DNA of 24,557 nucleotides from a virus: positions 1-24,557 of IMG/VR virus record IMGVR_UViG_3300034068_000310. One strand, given 5' to 3'. The position numbers and the translations under genes were made by a program. The notes under the pieces are model-generated. The model made no database searches. It was not told the origin of the DNA and saw nothing but the letters and a program-made list of their open reading frames with translations. Shown in pieces: positions 8,736-21,144 of this stretch (positions within the stretch are counted from its first letter, which is position 1; every line of letters begins with the position of its first letter).

Positions 8736-10832
8736 TTATTTTACAACTGCTTTTGCTGTGATTCTATCGGCTGCTATTGTAGCTTCTTGGATGTCTTTTT
8801 GAACTACAAATACTTTAACCGGTGGTTGCTTTTGTTGTGGTTGGTTTGGGTTCTGTGGTTGTCTTATTTGTGTAAAGCCTGTTGTTGGTGCTTGAATACC
8901 TCCACCACCAGTTCCACCGCCACCACCTCCGCTTGTATTTGTGCTGCCTGTTCCTTTAAAGGTTTGTTTTTTAATGATTACTAACTTTGCTAAACCTTGT
9001 GCTACTGCTACGGCTGCACCTAATATAGATGTGGTTTGAGTAACATCACCTGTTTGCAATCCGTTCTTATATGCTAATGCTGCTGCTTGATAAGTAGTGA
9101 TAACAGTTTCTGCTATTGCCATTGCTTTGTTACGTTCAAAGGCTTTCTTTTGTGCTGCTTCTGTCGCATTATCACCCTCTTGATTTAATGCTCTTAGCAA
9201 TTCAAACCCTGCTGTCATTGCTTGAGATTTTAAAGATTGTAATGATTCTTCATACTTTTTCTGTTCTTCTAATGACTTAGTATTTGATTTTGTATTTATC
9301 TCATTAGTTGCATTTGCTATCTCTAATTCTGTGGCTGTTGTATCTATGCCATAATCTTTTTGTGCAACTAATTTAGCATTAAGTTCTCTGATTTTTACAT
9401 CTTCAAGTTCTTTTGCAAATGCTTCATCACTTGTTTTATTTTTAATATGATTGTTCGTTATTTCAAGTCTTTGCTTATCAAAATATTGTTTAGTTAACTC
9501 TTCAGTTAAAGCTAACTCATCATCTTTTATTTTTTTTAAATCATCTTGGAATTTCTTTTCTTGTTCTAATTTCTTTTTATTATTTTCTTCAATTTGATTT
9601 CTTTCAATATTTCCTCTCAATAGAAGAGTTGCACTATCAAATTTTATCAGGTCTGCATTTACTAATTCAGCAGCCTTTCTTTCTGCTTCCCTCTTTGCAT
9701 CAAATTCAACAAGTTCTTTTTCATTAGCGTCTTTTATTAAATCTAACTTAGACTGAAAATCAATTGCAAGTCTTTGCTTTTCTTTTTCTGCTGCTACTTT
9801 TGCATCTTCAATAGCCTTATCAGTGTCCTTCTTAGCTTGTATTTTAGCATCATCTTCTAATTTTCTTTTATATTCTGCTTTGTTGTTTTCAATTTCATTT
9901 GTTTTATCAGCATACTCTTTAGCTTTATCAATGCCACTTGCATTTGCTCTTCCTAATATACGTTGCTCTTCTAATAATATTTCTTGTTTCTTTTTGAATA
10001 TTGCTTCTGCTGATGCACCATTTGCTTCTAATGATTTTAGTTCACGATTAAGTTGGTCAATTCCACCTTCTCTTGCAGCATTTAATTTTTCAGTTTTATC
10101 ATATTGTTTTTCAAGTTGCTCATTAAGTTTTTCTTTTTCATCTTTAGCTTTTTTATCTGCTATGGCTTCCTCATTGATGGATTCATTGTATTCAAGTATT
10201 TTACTAATTAATACACCAACTGCTATAACTAATAATCCTATTCCTGTTGATGCTAATGTGGCTCTAAATACTTTCATTGCACCTGTTGATGTTCCAACAG
10301 CAAACGCATAAGCCTTTTGTGCTGCTGTCATTGTGCCAGTTGCTTGAGCATCTGCTATTTTTGCAGCAGTTAAAGATGTAAATGCCTTAACTACTCCACC
10401 TTTTATTTGATTTCCTAAATCTACAAATGACTTTCGGGCATCCATTACACCCTGAATACCATCAGCAAATGCCATTGTAGCCTGTAATTTAGCTATGGTT
10501 TTTTCTATGTCTTCACTTGTATTACCAAATAAAACGGCTGCACCACTTGCCGCTTGAAATCCTCGTACTACTCCGTTGGTTAATGTTGAAAGTCTTGCAA
10601 ACTTATCAGGGTTTAAACCATTTACTTTTTCGTTTAAATCACCCATCTCATCCTTTAAGGATGCTAATTTAGCTGCTGCCTTTGTAGCTTCAGGGCTTAA
10701 CTCCCCAAACTTACGGGCTAATGCAATAGCTTCTTCTTTGGCTTCCCTTAATTCGGTCTTAATACTTTTTACCGACTTATCAGAACTACCTTTGTTTATT
10801 TCTAAGTCTAAACTTATTTTTTTTTCTGCCAT
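8736..10832 (-). CDS. Tail tape measure protein
   Basis: The 698-residue protein sets tail length and is later ejected with the DNA. The N-terminus (MAEKKISLDLEINKGSSDKS) leads into a helical region; residues about 195-212 are a hydrophobic membrane-like segment (STGIGLLVIAVGVLISKI). Residues 215-530 are a very long charged coiled coil rich in Lys, Glu, Ala. The end has a Gly-rich linker (GGGGGGTGGGG), a Pro/Gln stretch (QPQNPNQPQQKQPPVK) and a short strand-helix cap (VFVVQKDIQEATIAADRITA). All of this is standard for tape measures. At roughly 0.15 nm per residue, it implies a tail near 100 nm, an estimate only. The start overlaps the previous stop by one base (TAATG). Confidence 0.86.
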   Translation of the reverse strand: MAEKKISLDLEINKGSSDKSVKSIKTELREAKEEAIALARKFGELSPEATKAAAKLASLKDEMGDLNEKVNGLNPDKFARLSTLTNGVVRGFQAASGAAVLFGNTSEDIEKTIAKLQATMAFADGIQGVMDARKSFVDLGNQIKGGVVKAFTSLTAAKIADAQATGTMTAAQKAYAFAVGTSTGAMKVFRATLASTGIGLLVIAVGVLISKILEYNESINEEAIADKKAKDEKEKLNEQLEKQYDKTEKLNAAREGGIDQLNRELKSLEANGASAEAIFKKKQEILLEEQRILGRANASGIDKAKEYADKTNEIENNKAEYKRKLEDDAKIQAKKDTDKAIEDAKVAAEKEKQRLAIDFQSKLDLIKDANEKELVEFDAKREAERKAAELVNADLIKFDSATLLLRGNIERNQIEENNKKKLEQEKKFQDDLKKIKDDELALTEELTKQYFDKQRLEITNNHIKNKTSDEAFAKELEDVKIRELNAKLVAQKDYGIDTTATELEIANATNEINTKSNTKSLEEQKKYEESLQSLKSQAMTAGFELLRALNQEGDNATEAAQKKAFERNKAMAIAETVITTYQAAALAYKNGLQTGDVTQTTSILGAAVAVAQGLAKLVIIKKQTFKGTGSTNTSGGGGGGTGGGGIQAPTTGFTQIRQPQNPNQPQQKQPPVKVFVVQKDIQEATIAADRITAKAVVK

Positions 10833-13693
10833 TATACTATTACTATTTTATAATAAATCACTAATCTTACACTTCTGTTTCCACCTGAATACAATCCGTT
10901 TATTTTTAGTTTGATGTCTTCACTAAAATCTGTTGCTGATGCTACCGTTCCTACTGCAATAGTTCCTTCACCTAATCCTAACCAATCTGTTCCTAATATC
11001 GTTCCTACTACACTTGCACTGGTAACAGTTTCTAAAGTAATATTACCTGTGCTTCCCCAACTATAATTAGTTCCTGCACCTAACTGAAGATAAAATCGGT
11101 TTATTTCGTAGTGTTCATTGGTTGCTAACTTTGGAAGAACAAATTGAAAGTCACCATTATCCGCACCTTGCAACCAAGCTAAGTCTACTGTAATATCTTT
11201 TTTGTATTCTAACAAAGAACCGTTAAACATTGCACCTTCACGTGGCATAGTTGCTGCATCTGAATTAAATAACATAACTCTGTTACTGCTTACACTTGCT
11301 CCATCCGTTCCAAAAATATACACATCATCTGTAAATACTTTATTGCTTGAACCTTTTATAACACCGTTTGTTCCTGATGAATTATTTGAGTTACCTCCGT
11401 AATCTTTATCGTTTCTAAAAGTGTTTGAATCTTTGAACTTATTTAATGGTAATCTAACCGGTAAGGCTTTACCACTATCAAAGGTTGCTATTCCTCCGTT
11501 CATTGTTTTAATGCTCGTTGTGTAGGGTGCTTCCCTATCTACTTTTAATAACCTACATTTTGTTAGTTTTGTTCCGCTTATATCAAAGTCTTCAACGCTT
11601 AACAATCTATAATAGGCTTCTTTAATAAAATATTGCTTTCTAAAACTTAAAGTTATAAAATCAAATACCGATAAATCAAAATAGGCTTCTAATACTTTAG
11701 AGTTTTTATTGGTTAATTCTTTTACTGTTTGATGCCAGTAGTTACTATATAAATTTGAATCGGTATAAGTTGGTGAACTTTTACTTCCAAAGTTCCAATC
11801 ATAATACACATTGTAAGGTACTCCAAAGTTTAAATCAAAGGTTGCTGCTGTTGGATTGTCTAAATGTCCTGCATAAGGATAATTTGTTTTATTGGTTAAT
11901 CCTACACCTGACTGTTCATAAAATGCCCAAGACTTACAAGTCTTTAACCCTCCCCAATATAAAATCCTTAATTTACTTTTGCCTTGTTTAACTGTTCCAT
12001 CTTGGTCTACAAATACAATTGAACTCATTATCTTATCATCTTTAAGTCCTGTGTTAAATAATGGAGTAGCTGCAAAGATTGGTTTTATCTCTTTTGTTTC
12101 AGTTAAGAAGTCAGTCTGAATATCATATAATTCACTTCCATAAACTTCTTTGTAGGCTGTAAAATAAGAATTGTTAAGTCTGTCGGTGTCTTGCTCATAA
12201 GTAAACTTGTAACGTTTCTGTTGGTTCATTCCCATAGGTGTAAGAACTACATTTTGTCCTATGTCTATTTTGGTTGTCCAATCAACTACATCAGATGTGT
12301 AGTAGTCTTCACGTGGCTCTATTAATAAGGTTTTATCGTTGGTCTGTTCAAAGTATAAATTAAACATTTTACTTAAACCCATAATAAAATCATTCTTTTT
12401 AATATCGGTTGGTAATACGTTATTCAAACTAACGGTGTCAGCATAAACCAATTCAGGTTGTGGAACACAATTAAGAACTAAGTTTGTAAAAGTTACATCC
12501 ATATCACCATCTGCTGCACTTCCTCTTGTTACTCCTACTCTGTGGTCTTCTTCAAACTCTCCTGCAATCAAATAAATGTCATCTCCAATATCAACAGCAA
12601 AAGCATTACTTGTAAAACTAAATGTAGTTGTATCACTTGTATTTGAACCTCCTGTAAATATAAATCCTATTTCTAAAGACTGTTGGTAATATCTTATTCC
12701 GCTTCGTTCTAAAACTACATACAATTTACATTGTCCTGTTAATGTTTGCCAAGGTGTTACAGTATTTACCATTACGGCACTTCCTGACAATCCAAAAGCA
12801 TAGTTACCGTTTGCTTGACAAGTCCATTTGCCTGTGGTTGTATTAAAGTTGTTTCCTGAATCGTTGAACATTGTAGTTGTGCCAATCAATCCACTTGCAG
12901 TATTAAGAACTAAAACAGGTTGCCCTGCATTGTCTGACCATACACCACTTACAGCACTAACTGAAGCCTTGCCAACTTTGAATGTTCTTTCTACTATTGT
13001 GGCATTATCGTTTAACATCTTCTCTTCAGAGAAAGGAATTATTAAACTTTTAAATCTTGTTGTGTTAAAAAATGCACTTGAATAACTCCATCCTGCATCT
13101 GCAAAAATTCTATCTACTATCTCCTTTACAAAGATGGCAGGTCTAAAGTAATCTACATTCCAAATATTAAAATCAGTATTTAAACCGTAATCAATCATTG
13201 GATATGTATAACCCACTCCTAATGTTGGTGTCCAACTTGCTTCAATTACTGCCTTTGTCCAGTTGTGGTTAAGGTCACTAAAATCTATGTCACCTAATAC
13301 CTCGTTCTTTATATCGTTAAAGAAATTACCAATGGCAGCATATACGTTTACATTGTAAGCTATTTTATTGCCATCTAAGATAACTATATCAATCATCTGA
13401 CAAAACCCACTCATCACCACTGCATTGTCATTCATAACAACACACTTAGCTTTTAAGTTCGGGTTGAAGTCTGCATTGAAGTTTGTTAAAGATGTGTTTT
13501 GAATTTCTTTATTGACTTCAAATATCATCCCAAATAAAGTAGCTACCGCAGGTGTGTTCTGAATTAAGAATCCCTTTGAGTAATCTATCTGCTTTTGTTC
13601 CGGGTTTTCAATATCAACTATCTTTTTAGTAATTAATATTGAATCATCATTTACAATCGGGCAATTAACACCATTAATAAATACATTTATCAT
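10832..13693 (-). CDS. Large tail-tip (baseplate/hub-like) protein
   Basis: The 953-residue protein has a beta-rich N-terminal part beginning MINVFINGVNCPIVNDDSIL. It continues with SKGFLIQNTPAVATLFGMIF and SGFCQMIDIVILDGNKIAYN, a layout I recognise from tail-tip proteins of Bacteroidetes phages. YFRPAIFVKEIVDRIFADAG (near residue 185) is a typical helix in these proteins. The second half has RYKFTYEQDTDRLNNSYF followed by YKEVYGSELYD. A low-complexity Asn/Ser/Gly stretch (GGNSNNSSGTNG, near residue 767) then separates a C-terminal strand-rich domain that may bind a glycan. Position just upstream of the tape measure and after another tail protein supports a hub or distal-tail role. No enzymatic motif was seen. 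Confidence 0.65.
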   Translation of the reverse strand: MINVFINGVNCPIVNDDSILITKKIVDIENPEQKQIDYSKGFLIQNTPAVATLFGMIFEVNKEIQNTSLTNFNADFNPNLKAKCVVMNDNAVVMSGFCQMIDIVILDGNKIAYNVNVYAAIGNFFNDIKNEVLGDIDFSDLNHNWTKAVIEASWTPTLGVGYTYPMIDYGLNTDFNIWNVDYFRPAIFVKEIVDRIFADAGWSYSSAFFNTTRFKSLIIPFSEEKMLNDNATIVERTFKVGKASVSAVSGVWSDNAGQPVLVLNTASGLIGTTTMFNDSGNNFNTTTGKWTCQANGNYAFGLSGSAVMVNTVTPWQTLTGQCKLYVVLERSGIRYYQQSLEIGFIFTGGSNTSDTTTFSFTSNAFAVDIGDDIYLIAGEFEEDHRVGVTRGSAADGDMDVTFTNLVLNCVPQPELVYADTVSLNNVLPTDIKKNDFIMGLSKMFNLYFEQTNDKTLLIEPREDYYTSDVVDWTTKIDIGQNVVLTPMGMNQQKRYKFTYEQDTDRLNNSYFTAYKEVYGSELYDIQTDFLTETKEIKPIFAATPLFNTGLKDDKIMSSIVFVDQDGTVKQGKSKLRILYWGGLKTCKSWAFYEQSGVGLTNKTNYPYAGHLDNPTAATFDLNFGVPYNVYYDWNFGSKSSPTYTDSNLYSNYWHQTVKELTNKNSKVLEAYFDLSVFDFITLSFRKQYFIKEAYYRLLSVEDFDISGTKLTKCRLLKVDREAPYTTSIKTMNGGIATFDSGKALPVRLPLNKFKDSNTFRNDKDYGGNSNNSSGTNGVIKGSSNKVFTDDVYIFGTDGASVSSNRVMLFNSDAATMPREGAMFNGSLLEYKKDITVDLAWLQGADNGDFQFVLPKLATNEHYEINRFYLQLGAGTNYSWGSTGNITLETVTSASVVGTILGTDWLGLGEGTIAVGTVASATDFSEDIKLKINGLYSGGNRSVRLVIYYKIVIV

Positions 13694-14988
13694 TGTCTTC
13701 TATCTTGGTTATCAATCTCAAAACTAAACGAAAGGTTAAATAATTTATCTACTGTGTTGGTTTTATGTTCAAATACATTTGGGTCTTTAACGGTAATGTT
13801 TACAAATCCATCGGCACTATTCCAATAAACCATAGGAGAAGTAATTAAATCTTCTAATCCATCAAGTTCCCATTGCTTTAAAATATCTGAATTTAGTGTG
13901 TAGCTTTCTTTGGTGCTTACAATAAAATTCTTACCTGTTATGTCGTAGCTGTTTCTTACTATCGTGCTTCCTGATATTGGAAGGAATGTTGGATTGTAAC
14001 TCTGCCGTTCTATTTCGGTTGTATGTCGTGAACGCTTATTAAAAATCCAACTATCCCATCCACCGTATCTATTCAACCAATGTATCTCAAAGGTTTCAAA
14101 CTTGGAACAAGGTGTCCAGTCTATTTCAAATAAATATGTTCCTGATAATTGATAACCTGCTGACTGTTTTAAACAAATATAAAAATACTTATCTGTACTA
14201 TTTAAACTCAATATACTTCCACTTCCTATTGCTAACATTGCAGCCGTTCCTATGTTTTGTGATGCTACCATTTGTGCAGAAGCAATAGAACTGCCATAAC
14301 TAAAATGCAAACTAAAATCACTCTTAAAATATGCAAATTGAGAAACAGCATACGAACCACCCGAACCAACCCAATTCCACATCATTTGGACTAATTGTGA
14401 TGATGTTATTTTTCGGACATTATACTTACCTCCAAAATATGTAGATGGTGCTGATGATACTTGGGCATCGGTTGCTTGAACCATATTATTAAACCCTGTT
14501 AATAATCTTTGTGTTAAAGTATTTGCACCTACACTTGTATTTAATTGGTAGTCTAACCAATCACCAACACTCCACCCTTGATATTTTAATCCTGCATTAC
14601 TAAACCCAAATACGTTTGATGCTGTTGGGCTTCCTGTTACTGATGGAATTGCACCATAGCTTTCTCCAAATGTTACCTTTGCTGTTTTGTACTTTGTGTT
14701 TTCATTTTTTATCCCTGTTGCACTTGTTCTTAAATTAGTAATTCCCTCTGTTATCTTTGACTGTAAGATTTGTCGTGCATCAAATAAGATTTGAGTAGTT
14801 GAGGGGATAATGTCATAACGTAAAGTTGCAATAGGTGTAGCATCTGTATCAGGTGAATATACCTTTACCTCTATTTTAAAATTAGGGGCTGTACTTAAAG
14901 ATGAACTTACTAAAAACTCAATAGGATTACCTACTGGTCTTATATAGTTGTAAGTTGTATAAGGTTGCTGTTGGATAGTAATTGCCAT
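13690..14988 (-). CDS. Tail protein, probable distal-tail component
   Basis: The 432-residue protein starts MAITIQQQPYTTYNYIRPVG and has a beta-rich N-terminal domain of about 120 residues ending near KTAKVTFGESYGAIP. The middle is Ser/Ala/Gly-rich. The C-terminal third carries a striking motif, EIHWLNRYGGWDSWIFNKRS (about 299-318), followed by strands around SYDITGKNFIVSTKESYTL and VYWNSADGFVNITVKDP. I remember this Gly-Gly-Trp motif from Bacteroidetes phage tail proteins of unknown detail. Its stop overlaps the start of the 953-residue tail-tip gene by four bases (ATGA), so the two are probably made in equal amounts and work together at the tail tip. Confidence 0.55.
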   Translation of the reverse strand: MAITIQQQPYTTYNYIRPVGNPIEFLVSSSLSTAPNFKIEVKVYSPDTDATPIATLRYDIIPSTTQILFDARQILQSKITEGITNLRTSATGIKNENTKYKTAKVTFGESYGAIPSVTGSPTASNVFGFSNAGLKYQGWSVGDWLDYQLNTSVGANTLTQRLLTGFNNMVQATDAQVSSAPSTYFGGKYNVRKITSSQLVQMMWNWVGSGGSYAVSQFAYFKSDFSLHFSYGSSIASAQMVASQNIGTAAMLAIGSGSILSLNSTDKYFYICLKQSAGYQLSGTYLFEIDWTPCSKFETFEIHWLNRYGGWDSWIFNKRSRHTTEIERQSYNPTFLPISGSTIVRNSYDITGKNFIVSTKESYTLNSDILKQWELDGLEDLITSPMVYWNSADGFVNITVKDPNVFEHKTNTVDKLFNLSFSFEIDNQDRRQ

Positions 14989-15851: not shown

Positions 15852-16321
15852 AAAAAAAAATCACTTATTCCTTTTGCAACTGTGATTGGGCAATTATGCA
15901 ATATGTCATCCGCTTTCGTATCAAACTCTTTATCTCCAGTGTCAAGGATGGCAAGTATAATATGAATCTTATCTGATAGGTCTTCTTTGCAGGTTTCTAA
16001 GAAGTCAATCATCTGTCCTGCCTTCATATCACTTAGCTTAATTACAAAGTTATATCCGTTCCACTTGGTTACTAACTTGGTTTTAATCGGTTGCTCTAAA
16101 AAGCCATACTTAGCCGTTAGCTTAGTTATCTCACTTATCTTTAACTCTAATGCCTCATCAAAGGTTAAACCCTCTATCGCTGCTAAGACTGCTAACTTTT
16201 TATCAAACTCATCTTCATACAACTCACTTGCCTTTTGAAGTTCGTAGCTTTGTTTAATACTAATGTTTTCCCAATTCATTGTTTCAAATATAATACTTTT
16301 ACCTAATATCATACTTTCCAT
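15740..16321 (-). CDS. Tail assembly chaperone, zero-frame product (G part)
   Basis: The 193-residue, largely helical protein (starts MESMILGKSIIFETMNWENI) has an N-terminal pattern of helices with ELYEDEFDKKLAVLAAIEGL. This is followed by TFDEALELKISEITKLTAKY and a strand (TKLVTKWNGYNFVIKL), then MKAGQMIDFLETCKEDLSDK. A similar plan is found in Bacteroidetes-phage tail chaperones. The key evidence is the T10 tract at residues 154-157 (DFFF) and the long -1 frame after it, which is the G/GT design of lambda-type tail chaperones. Zero-frame reading ends with LKSQAQTLAETS after the slip site. The gene directly follows terL (overlap of 23 bases), an unusual place for a chaperone, which normally precedes the tape measure. 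Confidence 0.72.
   Translation of the reverse strand: MESMILGKSIIFETMNWENISIKQSYELQKASELYEDEFDKKLAVLAAIEGLTFDEALELKISEITKLTAKYGFLEQPIKTKLVTKWNGYNFVIKLSDMKAGQMIDFLETCKEDLSDKIHIILAILDTGDKEFDTKADDILHNCPITVAKGISDFFFRKYNLSPRIIQDYSLKKLKEMNKILKSQAQTLAETS
15851..15860 (-). promoter_or_regulatory. T10 slippery site for -1 frameshift
   Basis: Codons GAT TTT TTT TTT CGC give a run of ten T, containing the heptamer T TTT TTT. Re-pairing one base back opens the T frame. AGGA (15869-15872, minus strand) lies eight bases upstream and could act as a stimulatory Shine-Dalgarno, though Bacteroidetes ribosomes use that pairing poorly. I saw no strong hairpin just downstream by eye. RNA polymerase slippage on T10 would have the same effect. 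Confidence 0.75.
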
Positions 16322-17477
16322 AGTTCTTATTTAACGATGTAAAGTAATATCTAATCGCATCAATGCAATGATTAAACGCATCTATTGGTTTGTTTACTTG
16401 TTTTCCTGACCTGTCTGTATCCCAAATATAACTACGTAGTTCTTTGATTAGGTTTGTTGATTGTTTAGTTACTAAGAACTTTTGTTCCTGCATAAGACTA
16501 ATTCCAAACATAACACTGTCCTTTCCTTTGTCAGCACCTTTAATTCTGTATCCATAGTTTGCTATGTCTTGTATGGTTTTAGGCTCTGCACTATCTGCAT
16601 AGATGTAATGAACTTTTGTTACGTTCTTAGTCTTGAATAGGTTTGCAATTTCACTATTGACTAATCCTTTTTGATACACTATTTCATCAAAGATATATTG
16701 TCCGTTCCATTTGTAAATACCTATTAACGTTGTCGGGTCGTTAGTAAATCCCCAATCTGCTCCGTAACCTAATAGTTTAGCTTCTTCAGGTAGATTATCT
16801 ATCAGAGAATAATTATTAAACACTACGCCTTGTAAGTTACCTGTTTCCCCTAATCCGTACACCCTCCACCAATTAGCCCAATAATCACTATGCTTTGCCT
16901 TTTCTCTGTTTAACTCAATCTCGTTCTTAATCGTTTCGGGTAAGGCTTCGTTATCAAGATAGTTAAGGATTATCAGTTCGCTGTCGGGTTCTGTTAATAC
17001 TTCATTATGAACCCAAAACTCACTCGTTGGATTGTAGTCTAACCATATCGTATCGCTTGTTCTTATTGCTAATTGGTAGTAACTTTCAAAGTCTATGTTA
17101 TTAGCTTCGTTGATATAAAGTATCTCACGCCTTGCCCCTCTTAATTTGTCGGGTTGGTCTACACTAAAGAACTCAATGAATGAACCGTTGTTAAATGTAT
17201 AAGTTAAGAGAGATTTATTAAATTGGCTGTCTAAATAACGATTAGTCCAAACCATTATTTTAAGGAAGTCTTTTATTACTCCCCTTCTTAGATGTGGTAT
17301 TGATTCGCTTACTACGCTTATCTCTCTGTTAGGCTTGGTTAAGGCTGTGTTTATTAACAAAGGAAGTATGCCAAATGTCTTTCCTGCACTTGTTCCACCT
17401 TGCACAACTCTCTTCCTTGCCTTCATTTTGACAAGTTTATTTATGGCAGTTGTTCTTTTAAACTCACTCGCTAACAT
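16299..17477 (-). CDS. terL: Terminase large subunit
   Basis: This is the packaging motor ATPase and nuclease, 392 residues. The Walker A loop is GGTSAGKT (27-34), the Walker B strand and catalytic glutamate are ILYINEAN (119-126, E124), and a coupling motif may lie at LDYNP (146-150). The C-terminal RNase-H-like nuclease has its three acidic residues in GADWG (D241), YADSAEP (D295) and HCIDAIRY (D373). The layout is that of the PBSX/Terminase_3 type. The length is slightly shorter than many large terminases but all motifs are present, so it should be active. It overlaps the small subunit gene by 14 bases and the chaperone gene by 23 bases. Confidence 0.95.
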   Translation of the reverse strand: MLASEFKRTTAINKLVKMKARKRVVQGGTSAGKTFGILPLLINTALTKPNREISVVSESIPHLRRGVIKDFLKIMVWTNRYLDSQFNKSLLTYTFNNGSFIEFFSVDQPDKLRGARREILYINEANNIDFESYYQLAIRTSDTIWLDYNPTSEFWVHNEVLTEPDSELIILNYLDNEALPETIKNEIELNREKAKHSDYWANWWRVYGLGETGNLQGVVFNNYSLIDNLPEEAKLLGYGADWGFTNDPTTLIGIYKWNGQYIFDEIVYQKGLVNSEIANLFKTKNVTKVHYIYADSAEPKTIQDIANYGYRIKGADKGKDSVMFGISLMQEQKFLVTKQSTNLIKELRSYIWDTDRSGKQVNKPIDAFNHCIDAIRYYFTSLNKNYGKYDIR

Positions 17478-17883
17478 CAGGAAACAAAGGAACTTCTCTG
17501 TTTAAGTTTTCGTTTTGGGTCTTCTCAACTAATCCGTTCAAACGTTGGGTGATGGATGGATTGTATATACCTGCCATGCCTCCTTCTATTTGGTCTTGTC
17601 TAATCATTTGCCTTATTACACGACAGATAGGTAAGTATTGTTCATACATATTATCATGATTAGCAAAATATTTACTTAAATCCCCTGTTAAACCTTCATT
17701 AAAACAAAAGTTTTCAAACCCTTCCATTGTTAATGGTCGTTCCTTTTCTCTTTCGGCTCTACTTCCTTTGCCTCCTACAAAATCAACTACAATAATAGGA
17801 TTAAGTTTAGTTATCCTTTTGTAGTTTTCAAATAGTTCAAGCATCTTTTCAGGGCTTTCTATTTTCTTTGGTTGTCCTGCCAT
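17464..17883 (-). CDS. terS: Terminase small subunit
   Basis: The 139-residue protein sits directly before terL with a 14-base overlap, the normal pairing. It starts MAGQPKKIESPEKMLELFEN and continues with a helix (LTMEGFENFCFNEGLTGDL). The segment MYEQYLPICRVIRQMIRQDQ and then AGIYNPSITQRLNGLVEKTQ corresponds to the end of P22 gp3-like or related small subunits, where the repeated 'ANPSIAIFRLKN-G' type motif closes the oligomer helix. The short acidic end (PLFPDVSE) probably contacts the large subunit. Its start is two bases after the methyltransferase stop, so the sugar cassette and packaging genes are likely one transcript. Sequence recognition alone is moderate; position raises it. Confidence 0.82.
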   Translation of the reverse strand: MAGQPKKIESPEKMLELFENYKRITKLNPIIVVDFVGGKGSRAEREKERPLTMEGFENFCFNEGLTGDLSKYFANHDNMYEQYLPICRVIRQMIRQDQIEGGMAGIYNPSITQRLNGLVEKTQNENLNREVPLFPDVSE

Positions 17884-17885
17884 AA

Positions 17886-18572
17886 TTATATCTTTTGAAA
17901 TACTCTAATATGAACTACGCTAAATAGTTCTTTAAATCCTTCCTGATTCCATTCATCAACTGCTTTTGATACTGTTTCTATACCGGGGAACATTCCATGT
18001 GGTATTTGGTATTTGTGGCAACAATCATCAATTACTAAGTAACCGTTTTGTTTTACCATTGGTGTATAGTTTTGGATGTCTTGTTTTACTACATCGTAGC
18101 TATGACCACCGTCAATGTAAACTATGTCGTATTTTCTTTGGTTTGCTTCGGTTATTACTTCAGGAACAGTTGAAAGTCCTTTGATAATGTTTGGTTGCTT
18201 TAAATTGAACGTATCGTGTATTAGTTTGATGTCAGCTTCATAGTTACTTTCCCAATGTCCATCAGTTGAATCCAAAGGTGTTACTCCATATATCTTTGCC
18301 TTTGGTTGTAACATTTGAATTAACGCTAATGTTTGTCCTCTGAATACTCCTATTTCTAAAAAGTTAAAGTTAGGTTTTTGAGTATCACATATCAACTTCC
18401 ACATCCAATAAAATGAACGTTCACCAAATCCAAAAATAGATACTTCAATCCAATCTCTTAACGCTTTAAGGTGTGGTGTTTCGTTTGTCTTTTCGCAAAG
18501 TATATTATGTATGCTTTGATGTCTTTCAGGGGTGTCTTTCCATCCCTCTATTAATTCTTCTATTGTGTTCAT
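17886..18572 (-). CDS. Class I SAM-dependent methyltransferase (Methyltransf_24-like)
   Basis: The 228-residue protein has a Rossmann-type SAM site: NFLEIGVFRGQT (70-81) with the conserved acidic E73, then AKIYGVTPLDS at strand 2, YDIVYIDGGHSYD (148-160) at strand 4, and GYLVIDDCC (167-175) at strand 5. The IDGGHSY motif is typical of the Methyltransf_24 group and relatives that act on sugars, small molecules or antibiotics and are frequent in glycan gene clusters. No DNA-methylase target motif (such as DPPY or a PC motif) is present, so a sugar or protein substrate is more likely than DNA. It lies between the PLOD-type glycosyltransferase and terS. The substrate is unknown. Confidence 0.82.
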   Translation of the reverse strand: MNTIEELIEGWKDTPERHQSIHNILCEKTNETPHLKALRDWIEVSIFGFGERSFYWMWKLICDTQKPNFNFLEIGVFRGQTLALIQMLQPKAKIYGVTPLDSTDGHWESNYEADIKLIHDTFNLKQPNIIKGLSTVPEVITEANQRKYDIVYIDGGHSYDVVKQDIQNYTPMVKQNGYLVIDDCCHKYQIPHGMFPGIETVSKAVDEWNQEGFKELFSVVHIRVFQKI

Positions 18573-19201
18573 ATCAATTTATTATATTCTGTCATTGGTG
18601 TGTGACCGTTACCATGAATCCACGAAGGATATGTTTTGGTTACGGTGTTTAAAACTTTTGTGTTATCTACTATTTTAAAATCTGATTCAGGACAAAAGGC
18701 AATAGTTTGAAACACATCACAATTATAATCCAACTTTACAAAATCGGGATTGTTTAAAAATAAATCAGTAAACCATACTTGGTCTACATCGTGACTTTGA
18801 AGTGGATTTGATTCAACTGCTAACTTAAATATTTCTGAATTACAAAACCATCCACCACCGTTTACAAAGTGCCAAGGGCTTTCATGTTTTGGATAAAGAC
18901 TTTCTTTTTCGGGATGGGGATAACATCCACGTTCTGCACTCATCAAAATACAATTTTTATCTTCTATCTTTTTTAAAGTATTTTCCATTGTATCAAGCAC
19001 AATAGTATCATAGCTATCTGAATAAAAGAAGTAATCTATATCGGGATTGTTTTTAAGATATTGGTACGTTTTTAATATCTTATCTCCAAATCCTTCCCAC
19101 TTATGGACAAGTATTTCATACTCCCATCCATATTTCTTTAGTGACCTTTGCAGCATATCTGTTTTGCTTATGTCACTTGCTGTTGTTATTAATTTAATCA
19201 T
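18569..19201 (-). CDS. PLOD-type glycosyltransferase
   Basis: The 210-residue enzyme resembles the glycosyltransferase domain of procollagen lysyl hydroxylases. Its marks are the metal-binding FFYSDSYDTIV (58-68; D62 and D65), LMSAERGCYP (86-95), FVNGGGWFC (112-120), SHDVDQVWFTD (136-146), a LDYNCDVFQTI stretch, and WIHGNGH near the end, which matches the 'H-x-N-G' ending of the family. These are seen in the sequence; the family match is from memory. It would transfer a sugar from a nucleotide-sugar donor, probably UDP-linked and manganese-dependent. Its start overlaps the stop of the GT2 gene by eight bases, and its stop overlaps the methyltransferase start by four. Acceptor unknown. Confidence 0.78.
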   Translation of the reverse strand: MIKLITTASDISKTDMLQRSLKKYGWEYEILVHKWEGFGDKILKTYQYLKNNPDIDYFFYSDSYDTIVLDTMENTLKKIEDKNCILMSAERGCYPHPEKESLYPKHESPWHFVNGGGWFCNSEIFKLAVESNPLQSHDVDQVWFTDLFLNNPDFVKLDYNCDVFQTIAFCPESDFKIVDNTKVLNTVTKTYPSWIHGNGHTPMTEYNKLI

Positions 19202-19973
19202 AAGGGTTATAATAAATTGGTCTTTTGCCTGTTAAATACTCGTGGACTGTTCTTTGGTGTTCAATATCACCTTTAGCTGCTTCATCTCTTTTCCATTGCC
19301 AGTATGGTGTTTCTCGGTTGTCTATGTGTTCAATCTCAATATGTGGAAGGAAACAATTATAGAATCCTGCAACCTGTGAACGATAAGAAGCTAACACATC
19401 ATCATAACCATATAAGGAAGGTTGATAAAGGTAGCCTATCTTTTCAATTAAGGCTGCTGAATACATTTGGCAAGTTCCAATCACGTGCTTAACTTTTTCA
19501 ACTACTATCCAAGGTTCAAAGTCTTTATGTGGTAACATTACTAATTCGCTTTTATAATCATCATTTCGCCAAGGGTTTTCAATTAGGTCTTTACGTTTCA
19601 AACCTACTATTCCAATGTTCGGGTCACGTTCTATTGCTCTATCCATTTCATCCACCCAACCTGAAGAATGAATTACACAATCGTTATCCATCTTAATTAG
19701 GTTTTCGCCAGTTCTTTTAGTCTTCCAAGCTTGATTAATTGCTCCTGCCGTTCCTAAGTTTTCAGGTAAATTAATCACTTTAAATTCGTGGTGTCGTTCT
19801 TTACTCATTACCTCTAACATTTCGGTTGTACGTCTGCAAGAGTTATTATTTACCACTATTAAACGGTGTTTATGTAAATCAACTGTTCGCCTTAAAGAGT
19901 AAAGCGTTTGATAAGTGTATTCACTCCTTTCGTTTTCATCTGTGTCGTGGCAACACATGGCAATCATACTCAT
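19194..19973 (-). CDS. GT2-family glycosyltransferase
   Basis: This 259-residue enzyme has the GT-A plan. An N-terminal nucleotide-binding strand ends RLIVVNNNS (37-45), then comes LPENLGTAGAINQAWK (69-84), a signature that follows the donor site in GT2 enzymes. The metal-binding DxD-type motif is KMDNDCVIHSSGW (94-106, D96 and D98). WVDEMDRAIERDPNIGIVGL follows, and further on YQPSLYGYDDVLASYRSQVA supplies the catalytic acidic residues near the acceptor site. A C-terminal region rich in His/Arg ends GKRPIYYNPYD. It probably transfers a sugar to a glycan chain. It starts in an ATGA overlap with the upstream 62-residue gene. Donor and acceptor are unknown. Confidence 0.86.
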   Translation of the reverse strand: MSMIAMCCHDTDENERSEYTYQTLYSLRRTVDLHKHRLIVVNNNSCRRTTEMLEVMSKERHHEFKVINLPENLGTAGAINQAWKTKRTGENLIKMDNDCVIHSSGWVDEMDRAIERDPNIGIVGLKRKDLIENPWRNDDYKSELVMLPHKDFEPWIVVEKVKHVIGTCQMYSAALIEKIGYLYQPSLYGYDDVLASYRSQVAGFYNCFLPHIEIEHIDNRETPYWQWKRDEAAKGDIEHQRTVHEYLTGKRPIYYNPYD

Positions 19974-20158
19974 ATATTTTTATCTCGAATAATCCTTGTT
20001 AATGCTCTACCAATACAACCGCTGCAATTTAAATCTACCGAAGCGTGGTAGGTTTGTTGGTAGTAATGTCTTAACTCACCTCCGTATTCTCCTAAGCTAA
20101 CTGCTTGAGAAGTTTTATATTCTTTTACTTTTTCAAGTAACCCTTTGCTTAATTCCAT
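19970..20158 (-). CDS. Small CxxC hypothetical protein in the sugar cassette
   Basis: The 62-residue protein begins MELSKGLLEKVKEYKTSQAV and has a helix-turn plan with VDLNCSGCIGRALTRIIRD at the end. The CSGC pair could bind a metal or form a disulfide, but two cysteines alone are not enough for a zinc finger unless it dimerises. No known domain is recognised. It overlaps the preceding glycosyltransferase gene by 10 bases and the GT2 gene by four, so it is part of the same coupled unit. Similar small Cys-containing proteins are common beside glycosyltransferases in phages, as an impression only. Confidence 0.6.
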   Translation of the reverse strand: MELSKGLLEKVKEYKTSQAVSLGEYGGELRHYYQQTYHASVDLNCSGCIGRALTRIIRDKNI

Positions 20159-21144
20159 TTGTTTAATATTTCTAAACGTCTTTCGTTTACGGTGTCAATC
20201 AAATATCTTTTTCTTATATCTTCGTGGAGTTTACTACTTAAATCATTTTGCATATTAGCATTGTTTAACAGCATTGTAGCATACTTTTGGAAGTCTGCCT
20301 TATCTTTACACACCAAACTATTAACCATGTGATTTGAAAGGATAGAATAAGGGTGTATATCTGATACTATTATTGCCTTCTTTGCCCATCCACTTTCAAT
20401 CATCTTTAACTCTGATTTGTTTTTATTAAACTGATTATTTTTTAACGGTATCAAAGCTATGGAAGTATCGTGATAATGATTCATATATTCATTCACTGGT
20501 AACATATCTTTTTTTAGTGGGTGCTTTATTTTACCGCACATTTTAAACCATTCATCAGAGTAATGATAACCGCATAAAGTAATCGGTTCTTCTATTTCTC
20601 CCAACAGTTCTAAATCCATTGCATGGGTGCTTGAACCTTGCCACATTAATTTATTCTCAACTGTGAAGTCTTGATTGTATTGTGGTTCATTTGGGTCTAT
20701 TGCATTTCGGCAAACTGTTACCTTACTCTTATCTATTCCTAATTTAACTATTTGACTTCGTAAATGTGAATGTGTTGTCGTGATGTGGTCAGCATATTTA
20801 AGTTGGTCTTGAATACATTTTGAATAATTAGTCTTTCGGGCAAAACTATACATCGGGTGACCGGGTACTATATCCCAATAATCATCCAAATCCATTATTA
20901 TCTTTACTCCTGCTATTTTAGCTTTGGCAAATATTGGTGATGGGTCTAAGATGTCTGATATGTTACGGTTAAAAACAATAACATCAAACTGTTTAAGTTC
21001 TTCAATAGTTACCATGCCACCTTCCCAGTGTAGAGATGGTGTTTTTAAAACATGATGTCCTTCACTTTGCAAAGCATTATAAGGTACTTGCAGTCTGTGA
21101 TAGAATACACCGTTGTTAAAACTACCTACTAATAATATTCTCAT
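20149..21144 (-). CDS. GT-B fold glycosyltransferase (GT1/GT4-like)
   Basis: The 331-residue protein has two Rossmann-like halves. The N-terminal half starts MRILLVGSFNNGVFYHRLQV and has FDVIVFNRNISDILDP and IIMDLDDYWDI (83-92). A hinge (KVTVCRNAIDPNEP) leads into a C-terminal half with KLMWQGSSTHAMDLELL (165-181), IALIPLKNNQFNKNKSELKM (229-248) and the acidic E250, and SGWAKKAIIVSD (251-262). These correspond to the donor-binding E-x7-E region of GT4 enzymes. It resembles phage-encoded glycosyltransferases I know from Bacteroidetes and other phages. The start at 21144 lies 23 bases inside the sigma-like gene, so it is coupled to a regulator gene. Substrates are unknown. Confidence 0.78.
   Translation of the reverse strand: MRILLVGSFNNGVFYHRLQVPYNALQSEGHHVLKTPSLHWEGGMVTIEELKQFDVIVFNRNISDILDPSPIFAKAKIAGVKIIMDLDDYWDIVPGHPMYSFARKTNYSKCIQDQLKYADHITTTHSHLRSQIVKLGIDKSKVTVCRNAIDPNEPQYNQDFTVENKLMWQGSSTHAMDLELLGEIEEPITLCGYHYSDEWFKMCGKIKHPLKKDMLPVNEYMNHYHDTSIALIPLKNNQFNKNKSELKMIESGWAKKAIIVSDIHPYSILSNHMVNSLVCKDKADFQKYATMLLNNANMQNDLSSKLHEDIRKRYLIDTVNERRLEILNKWN

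Follow-up and report, generated by a model that had tools for sequence, protein, structure and literature searches.

A modular glycosyltransferase and methyltransferase cassette beside the terminase genes of an uncultivated phage: a candidate pathway for an O-methylated virion glycan

Glycosylated phage particles are known in a few systems. This work concerns a gene cassette that may belong with them: three glycosyltransferases of different types (GT-B, GT2 and PLOD/LH3-type, the last called PLOD below), a methyltransferase (MT) and a small CxxC protein, encoded between a sigma-factor-like gene and the terminase genes terS and terL of the virus record IMGVR_UViG_3300034068_000310 (positions 1 to 24,557, the whole stretch analysed, hereafter the window). 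In the chlorovirus PBCV-1, soluble cytoplasmic glycosyltransferases encoded by the virus itself provide a structural protein with a short glycan whose terminal sugar is methylated by a methyltransferase; its A064R protein has two glycosyltransferase domains and a sugar methyltransferase fused in one chain (PMC7019647). This fusion is paralleled, by architecture, in five relatives of the window in which PLOD and MT are joined. Mycobacteriophages encode glycosyltransferases that glycosylate their capsid and tail-tube proteins, according to the accounts of Freeman et al. (2023) given in PMC10955285 and PMC12619734. It is worth pointing out, however, that PBCV-1 is a eukaryotic virus with a different host, that the mycobacteriophages are a different phage group, and that a virion target is only proposed for the window cassette. 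We know of no PLOD-type enzyme or methyl cap in mycobacteriophage virion glycosylation. A relative of the GT-B enzyme (about 32% identity) is found within a run of four glycosyltransferase genes, gp163-166, in phage phi92 (Justusliebigvirus), but phi92 is a 149-kb phage whose cluster has no annotated PLOD or MT gene and lies beside the DNA polymerase rather than the terminase; a literature search on this cluster found nothing. Phage-encoded glycosyltransferases are also a feature of the T-even phages and of the systems that pair TET with a TET-associated glycosyltransferase (TAGT), and relatives of the window carry TAGT and TET in a neighbouring slot, whereas in profile searches the window and its nearest full-length relatives had neither TAGT nor enzymes that make hydroxylated bases.

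On balance, we favour the reading that this soluble cytoplasmic cassette would build a short glycan with an O-methyl group, the probable carrier being a virion protein. The case for a common pathway begins with gene order. GT2, PLOD and MT follow one another in this order ahead of terS and terL in about 27 other IMG/VR contigs (a hand count from the gene-order table that includes two PLOD-MT fusions and some contigs close to one another), among which identity to the window falls to about 50% for GT2, 29% for PLOD and 52% for MT. Since the same order is found again in dozens of contigs, the arrangement is not a matter of chance; a first-pass annotation, made from the letters of the window, had proposed searching for just such an ordered set elsewhere. 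In larger or unrelated phages all four enzymes are likewise grouped, though arranged differently and not beside the sigma gene and terS (L238, L241, L242, L243, L248 and L151/L154 by our labels), the order being GT2-PLOD-MT-GTB in L238 and GTB-x-GT2-(x)-PLOD-MT, downstream of a portal-looking protein, in L242 and L243. The five PLOD-MT fusions, those of L129 and L222 among them, each in one open frame, come from three divergent lineages and are 37-83% identical to one another, which is strong evidence that the MT acts on the product or the acceptor of PLOD. All five genes are maintained by purifying selection, as indicated by the low ratios of nonsynonymous to synonymous substitution (dN/dS) between the window and its relative G003: 0.097 for GT-B, 0.119 for CxxC, 0.075 for GT2, 0.154 for PLOD and 0.119 for MT. 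Conserved synteny, the fusions, the catalytic residues and purifying selection thus uphold the earlier proposal that enzymes expressed together build and cap a short glycan. As far as we could find, the cassette is a real, conserved and modular entity whose general kind is known and whose composition and modular layout are new; no description of this gene set turned up in the literature (mostly open-access) or in phage, PDB, Pfam and PHROG searches.

Almost every gene of the 24.6-kb fragment lies on the minus strand, and the cassette stands at the head of the operon of packaging and virion genes, overlapping or directly adjoining them (Table 1). The annotation had listed the three glycosyltransferases and an S-adenosylmethionine-dependent (SAM) methyltransferase between the sigma-like gene and terS, with an overlap or a two-base gap at every junction, and both points agree with the family matches and the coordinates; its count of four enzymes was right, but it overlooked a fifth gene, that of the CxxC protein between GT-B and GT2. 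Neighbouring genes overlap by 23 bases (sigma/GT-B), 10 (GT-B/CxxC), 4 (CxxC/GT2, ATGA), 8 (GT2/PLOD) and 4 (PLOD/MT, ATGA), followed by a gap of 2 bases between MT and terS and an overlap of 14 between terS and terL. Because a scan for promoters and terminators gave counts no higher than in shuffled sequence, the limits of the operon rest on gene overlap. The sigma-like gene, with a Sigma70_r4_2 match at no better than E 0.09, occupies the same position in most relatives and opens the operon segment.

Table 1. Genes of the cassette and its borders, and the segment exchanged in relatives (window coordinates; aa, amino acids)
Feature	Coordinates	Strand	Evidence
Sigma-factor-like regulator, 163 aa	21122-21613	minus	PHROG 1740 RNA polymerase sigma factor, E 7.7e-6 (weak)
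GT-B glycosyltransferase, 331 aa	20149-21144	minus	PHROG 7162 glycosyltransferase, E 2.6e-47
CxxC protein, 62 aa	19970-20158	minus	Open reading frame between GT-B and GT2; no Pfam or PHROG match
GT2 glycosyltransferase (GT-A fold), 259 aa, soluble	19194-19973	minus	PF00535, E 1.9e-14
PLOD/LH3-type glycosyltransferase, 210 aa	18569-19201	minus	PF25342, E 5.9e-24
SAM-dependent O-methyltransferase (MT), 228 aa	17886-18572	minus	PF13578, E 3e-14; PF04989 (RMNT_CmcI), E 7e-5 (weak)
terS, right border of cassette	17464-17883	minus	PF16677, E 3e-8; PHROG 606, E 1e-13
terL	16299-17477	minus	PF17288, E 2e-20; PF04466
Segment exchanged in closest relatives (one block or two steps)	16784-19960	.	Flanks 92-95% DNA identity; interior divergent or absent in G001, G002

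Among the individual enzymes, PLOD is the most informative. It scores 85 bits against PF25342 (cut-off 27), and its best PDB matches are mimivirus R699 (E 7e-25) and human LH3 (E 1e-19 to 3e-18), and the alignment takes in the greater part of the catalytic domain in their glycosyltransferase portion, with metal and catalytic residues conserved. R699 and LH3 form an alpha-1,2-glucosyl bond, and because R699 makes this bond the phage enzyme is predicted to do the same; it is also predicted to be a retaining transferase of the UDP-glucose type. Nine of its residues, K41, D62, D65, E90, N114, D140, Q141, H196 and N198, are invariant in 31 phage sequences. The residues of R699 that bind metal, donor and acceptor have been given as K62, E114, N138, D163, Q164, H216 and N218 (PMC11838735); these align with K41, E90, N114, D140, Q141, H196 and N198 of PLOD, and the DxxD pair with D62/D65, in a mapping made by eye from the alignment with PDB chain numbering offset by 3 residues. 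In the same alignment the window enzyme has Tyr in place of W118 of R699 and Val in place of D162. PLOD differs from R699 and LH3 in having no lysyl hydroxylase domain, and the search for such a gene elsewhere (2-oxoglutarate-Fe(II) oxygenase, PF13640) found none in 11 records; nor were there collagen-like Gly-X-Y runs of at least 5 in G000-G003. A collagen-like target was rejected for this reason: with neither a hydroxylase nor a collagen-like protein found, collagen is not the substrate of PLOD.

The other proteins can be characterized more briefly. GT2 has a DND metal motif at residues 96-98, in which D98 is invariant in 40 distinct sequences and D96 is kept in 38. The nearest solved structure to GT-B is that of TreT/trehalose synthase (E 4e-5). 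The MT is of the Methyltransf_24/CmcI-like type and is predicted to cap a sugar; it belongs with the small-molecule or sugar O-methyltransferases and is not a DNA methylase, in agreement with the earlier argument against simple DNA methylation. The CxxC protein is modelled by AlphaFold2 as a three-helix bundle (mean confidence, pLDDT, 87.5). Its family has 65 distinct sequences in which only the two Cys are invariant, and its gene lies at most 1.6 kb from GT-B in 89 of the 112 GT-B loci. Two identities were considered for it and rejected: a known fold, since there was no Foldseek match at E <= 0.001 and no PHROG match, and a packaging gene, since its hidden Markov model was not found near terL in TerL relatives without the cassette.

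The first-pass annotation had described the cassette as locked into the phage operon. This holds for the position of the slot between the CxxC gene and terS, which is fixed, but not for its contents, which are replaced or absent in the closest relatives. These relatives retain the sigma gene (91% identity), GT-B (96%, also where the other enzymes are missing, making it the constant member of the locus), CxxC (90-98%) and the two genes 3' of terL (98-100%). In one group, here called type B (L005, L008, L009 = G001), we find a different GT2 (75%), another methyltransferase and open reading frames of 161, 310 and 185 amino acids; the last 28 codons of the window-type MT persist just before terS, which suggests an earlier replacement of the window-type module. 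In G002, a 36-kb genome that is apparently complete as it has a 127-base terminal repeat, and in L013/L014, the CxxC gene is followed directly by a different terS. The breakpoints fall at about 19960, the CxxC/GT2 junction, and at 16784 within terL, where the ATPase half meets the nuclease half. TerL is accordingly a mosaic, with a nuclease half common to near relatives and an ATPase half that is exchanged together with terS, and its identity to G001 and G002 shifts near codon 230. Because GT2-PLOD-MT is swapped or missing in the closest relatives, these three genes are in part the transient, unlinked kind that the annotation had said would speak against it, and GT-B is not.

Elsewhere the slot holds, by Pfam, GT8, an Anp1-like glycosyltransferase, FkbM, an epimerase or a hexapeptide acyltransferase and, by inspection of L232, aminotransferase-like and PglD-like genes. 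In L015 (3300027801_002890) two GT-B matches are followed by epimerase, formyltransferase-like and HisH/HisF-like genes, a set suggestive of the synthesis of an amidated or formylated sugar. Genes resembling GIY-YIG homing endonucleases were seen within the cassette in L009 (9210-9827), L241 (6771-7538) and L232 (6786-7658), and they may drive its exchange. From sequence inspection, the cassette is in place in L129, L145 and L127 although the adjoining terminase appears to be of another family; it thus does not depend on a particular terminase.

Over the relatives as a whole the genes run sigma, GT-B, in some a small membrane protein, CxxC, the glycan slot, a DNA-modification slot, terS and terL, so that a glycan slot can be distinguished from a DNA-modification slot at one site. 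The former holds GT2-PLOD-MT, GT2-PLOD, other sets of glycosyltransferase and MT, or nothing. The latter holds a ParB-like gene with a methylase, Mom (E 5e-43), TAGT, TET or AdoMet decarboxylase, 7-deazaguanine-type genes, or nothing, and it is empty in the window. DNA-modification genes were seen in this pre-terS position in L073, L076, L088, L104, L067, L070, L069 and L124, those of L124 being PTPS/QueE-like.

The second slot bears on a different reading, according to which the three glycosyltransferases would put a short methylated glycan on a modified base before packaging, so that the cassette hypermodifies phage DNA. Phages T4, T6 and RB69 do glycosylate DNA bases (PMC13390438). The place of the cassette beside the terminase, the Mom, ParB-methylase, TAGT and TET genes of the adjoining slot and the DNA methylases encoded by full relatives would all fit. 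We nevertheless regard this reading as rather unlikely, because no base-hydroxylating enzyme was found and the DNA-modification genes have a slot of their own. A thymidylate-synthase-type hydroxymethylase (PF00303) was absent from 21 records, TET (PF12851) from 18 records of this cassette type or close relatives (with four positive controls) and TAGT (PF20691) from 17 records of this or a related type (the model did match control relatives); most of these records are fragments, and the negatives carry most weight for the near-full contigs and for G002, which looks complete but whose slot is empty. GT2-PLOD is found with ParB-Mom (L090, L099), with a ParB/methylase-like gene (L093, L096) or without either (L120, L122), so that no one base chemistry goes with the glycan module, and the PLOD and MT families are of protein- or sugar-acting types.

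A second alternative is that the cassette alters a surface glycan of the host during infection, to block superinfection or protect the progeny. This is the role of the phage Gtr glycosyltransferases in O-antigen conversion, and many relatives outside the close clade do have a small membrane protein in the cassette. The window's own clade, however, lacks the membrane gene, none of the cassette proteins of the window has a hydrophobic or transmembrane segment, and there is no flippase or polyprenol-phosphate transferase among them. Gtr serotype conversion itself was rejected, as membrane parts of the GtrA/GtrB type are missing and the GtrB PHROG match reaches only E 0.01. The Pfam families of the scanned G002 and G003 proteins include no integrase match, which casts doubt on lysogenic conversion by this phage, even if some of its relatives are prophages. 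Taken together, a host-surface target seems highly improbable. The membrane protein of the relatives is about 80 amino acids long with a PFxCxxCxSFW-like motif, and was seen between GT-B and CxxC in L029 (6765-7001), L092 (8239-8478) and about 40 others, not in the window.

It is also conceivable, if quite unlikely, that the sugars are placed on a host molecule or on some small molecule of the cytoplasm, such as a defence signal or a host protein, rather than on a phage structure. GT-B and CxxC are retained alone in the relatives with an empty slot, and the CxxC protein might serve as regulator or acceptor, which would suit such a role; a line of three to four enzymes, an O-methyl cap and frequent swapping would, on the other hand, better fit a displayed antigen.

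We therefore come back to a glycan on the virion. Of the three targets that the first-pass annotation had offered, a virion protein remains the best, DNA is less likely and the host surface unlikely; we infer this by elimination, from where the genes lie within the operon for packaging and virion proteins, and from the swapping of sugar genes, which fits a displayed structure. The proposed pathway would operate during late infection, in the cytoplasm of the host: GT-B would attach the first, constant sugar to the acceptor from host nucleotide sugars, GT2 would extend the chain, PLOD would add a further sugar, probably glucose in alpha-1,2 linkage, and MT would cap the glycan by methylation. 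GT-B with CxxC as a helper protein would be the constant unit and GT2-PLOD-MT one of several interchangeable modules for extension and capping, and the swapping of modules would give related phages different surface glycans, probably altering adsorption, shielding or recognition of the particle. The target would be one or more virion proteins. Candidate acceptors are a Ser/Thr-rich fibre (512-2518, 27% Ser+Thr) and a lambda gpJ-like tail-tip hub (10832-13693) with a C1q/TNF-like jelly-roll insertion where relatives diverge most. Residues of about 250-450 and 750-950 of the hub are hypervariable between otherwise near-identical phages.

Several points weigh against this reading. The evidence for a virion glycan is indirect: its acceptors are candidates and the order of the enzymes is a guess. 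The identity of the hub in the three closest genomes (87/66/58%) tracks the cassette type while most neighbours stay high, but co-variation of hub and cassette did not hold over 15 contigs (partial r -0.33). Of five virion-region proteins tested, only that at 13690-14988 tracks the content of the glycan slot after controls, and weakly so (partial r 0.31, p 0.002 uncorrected, n=15). The frequent DNA-modification genes of the neighbouring slot, TET and TAGT included, give the region a DNA-modification flavour. Finally, the sole PDB match of the MT profile, 6g7d, is weak (E 0.004); we take it to be the mycobacterial sugar methyltransferase MeT1, a weak lead. MeT1 is described in PMC9883506.

A bolder proposal, which we offer tentatively and consider doubtful, is a "glycotype" switch. 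A constant priming unit of GT-B and CxxC, the latter possibly a primer, carrier or acceptor, would be followed by a swappable extension-capping module stacked upstream of a swappable DNA-modification module, beside the co-exchanged ATPase half of terL. If this were true, one recombination would change the surface glycan of the virion and the packaging motor together. In any case, the occurrence of this conserved four-enzyme set, with its collagen-type glucosyltransferase and methyl cap, in dozens of uncultivated phages and its exchange as a unit suggest that the building and switching of particle glycans may be common in Bacteroidota phages, and the cassette provides concrete candidates for the study of phage-glycan function.

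As for the host, Flavobacterium psychrophilum phages have a TerL that shares 55% identity with that of the window, and no cassette was seen in the terminase neighbourhood of FpV9. Prophage-like loci with the sigma gene, GT-B, terL and the following genes were found in Chitinophaga cymbidii, another Chitinophaga, Mucilaginibacter and a Bacteroidetes metagenome-assembled genome. A Bacteroidota host is likely.

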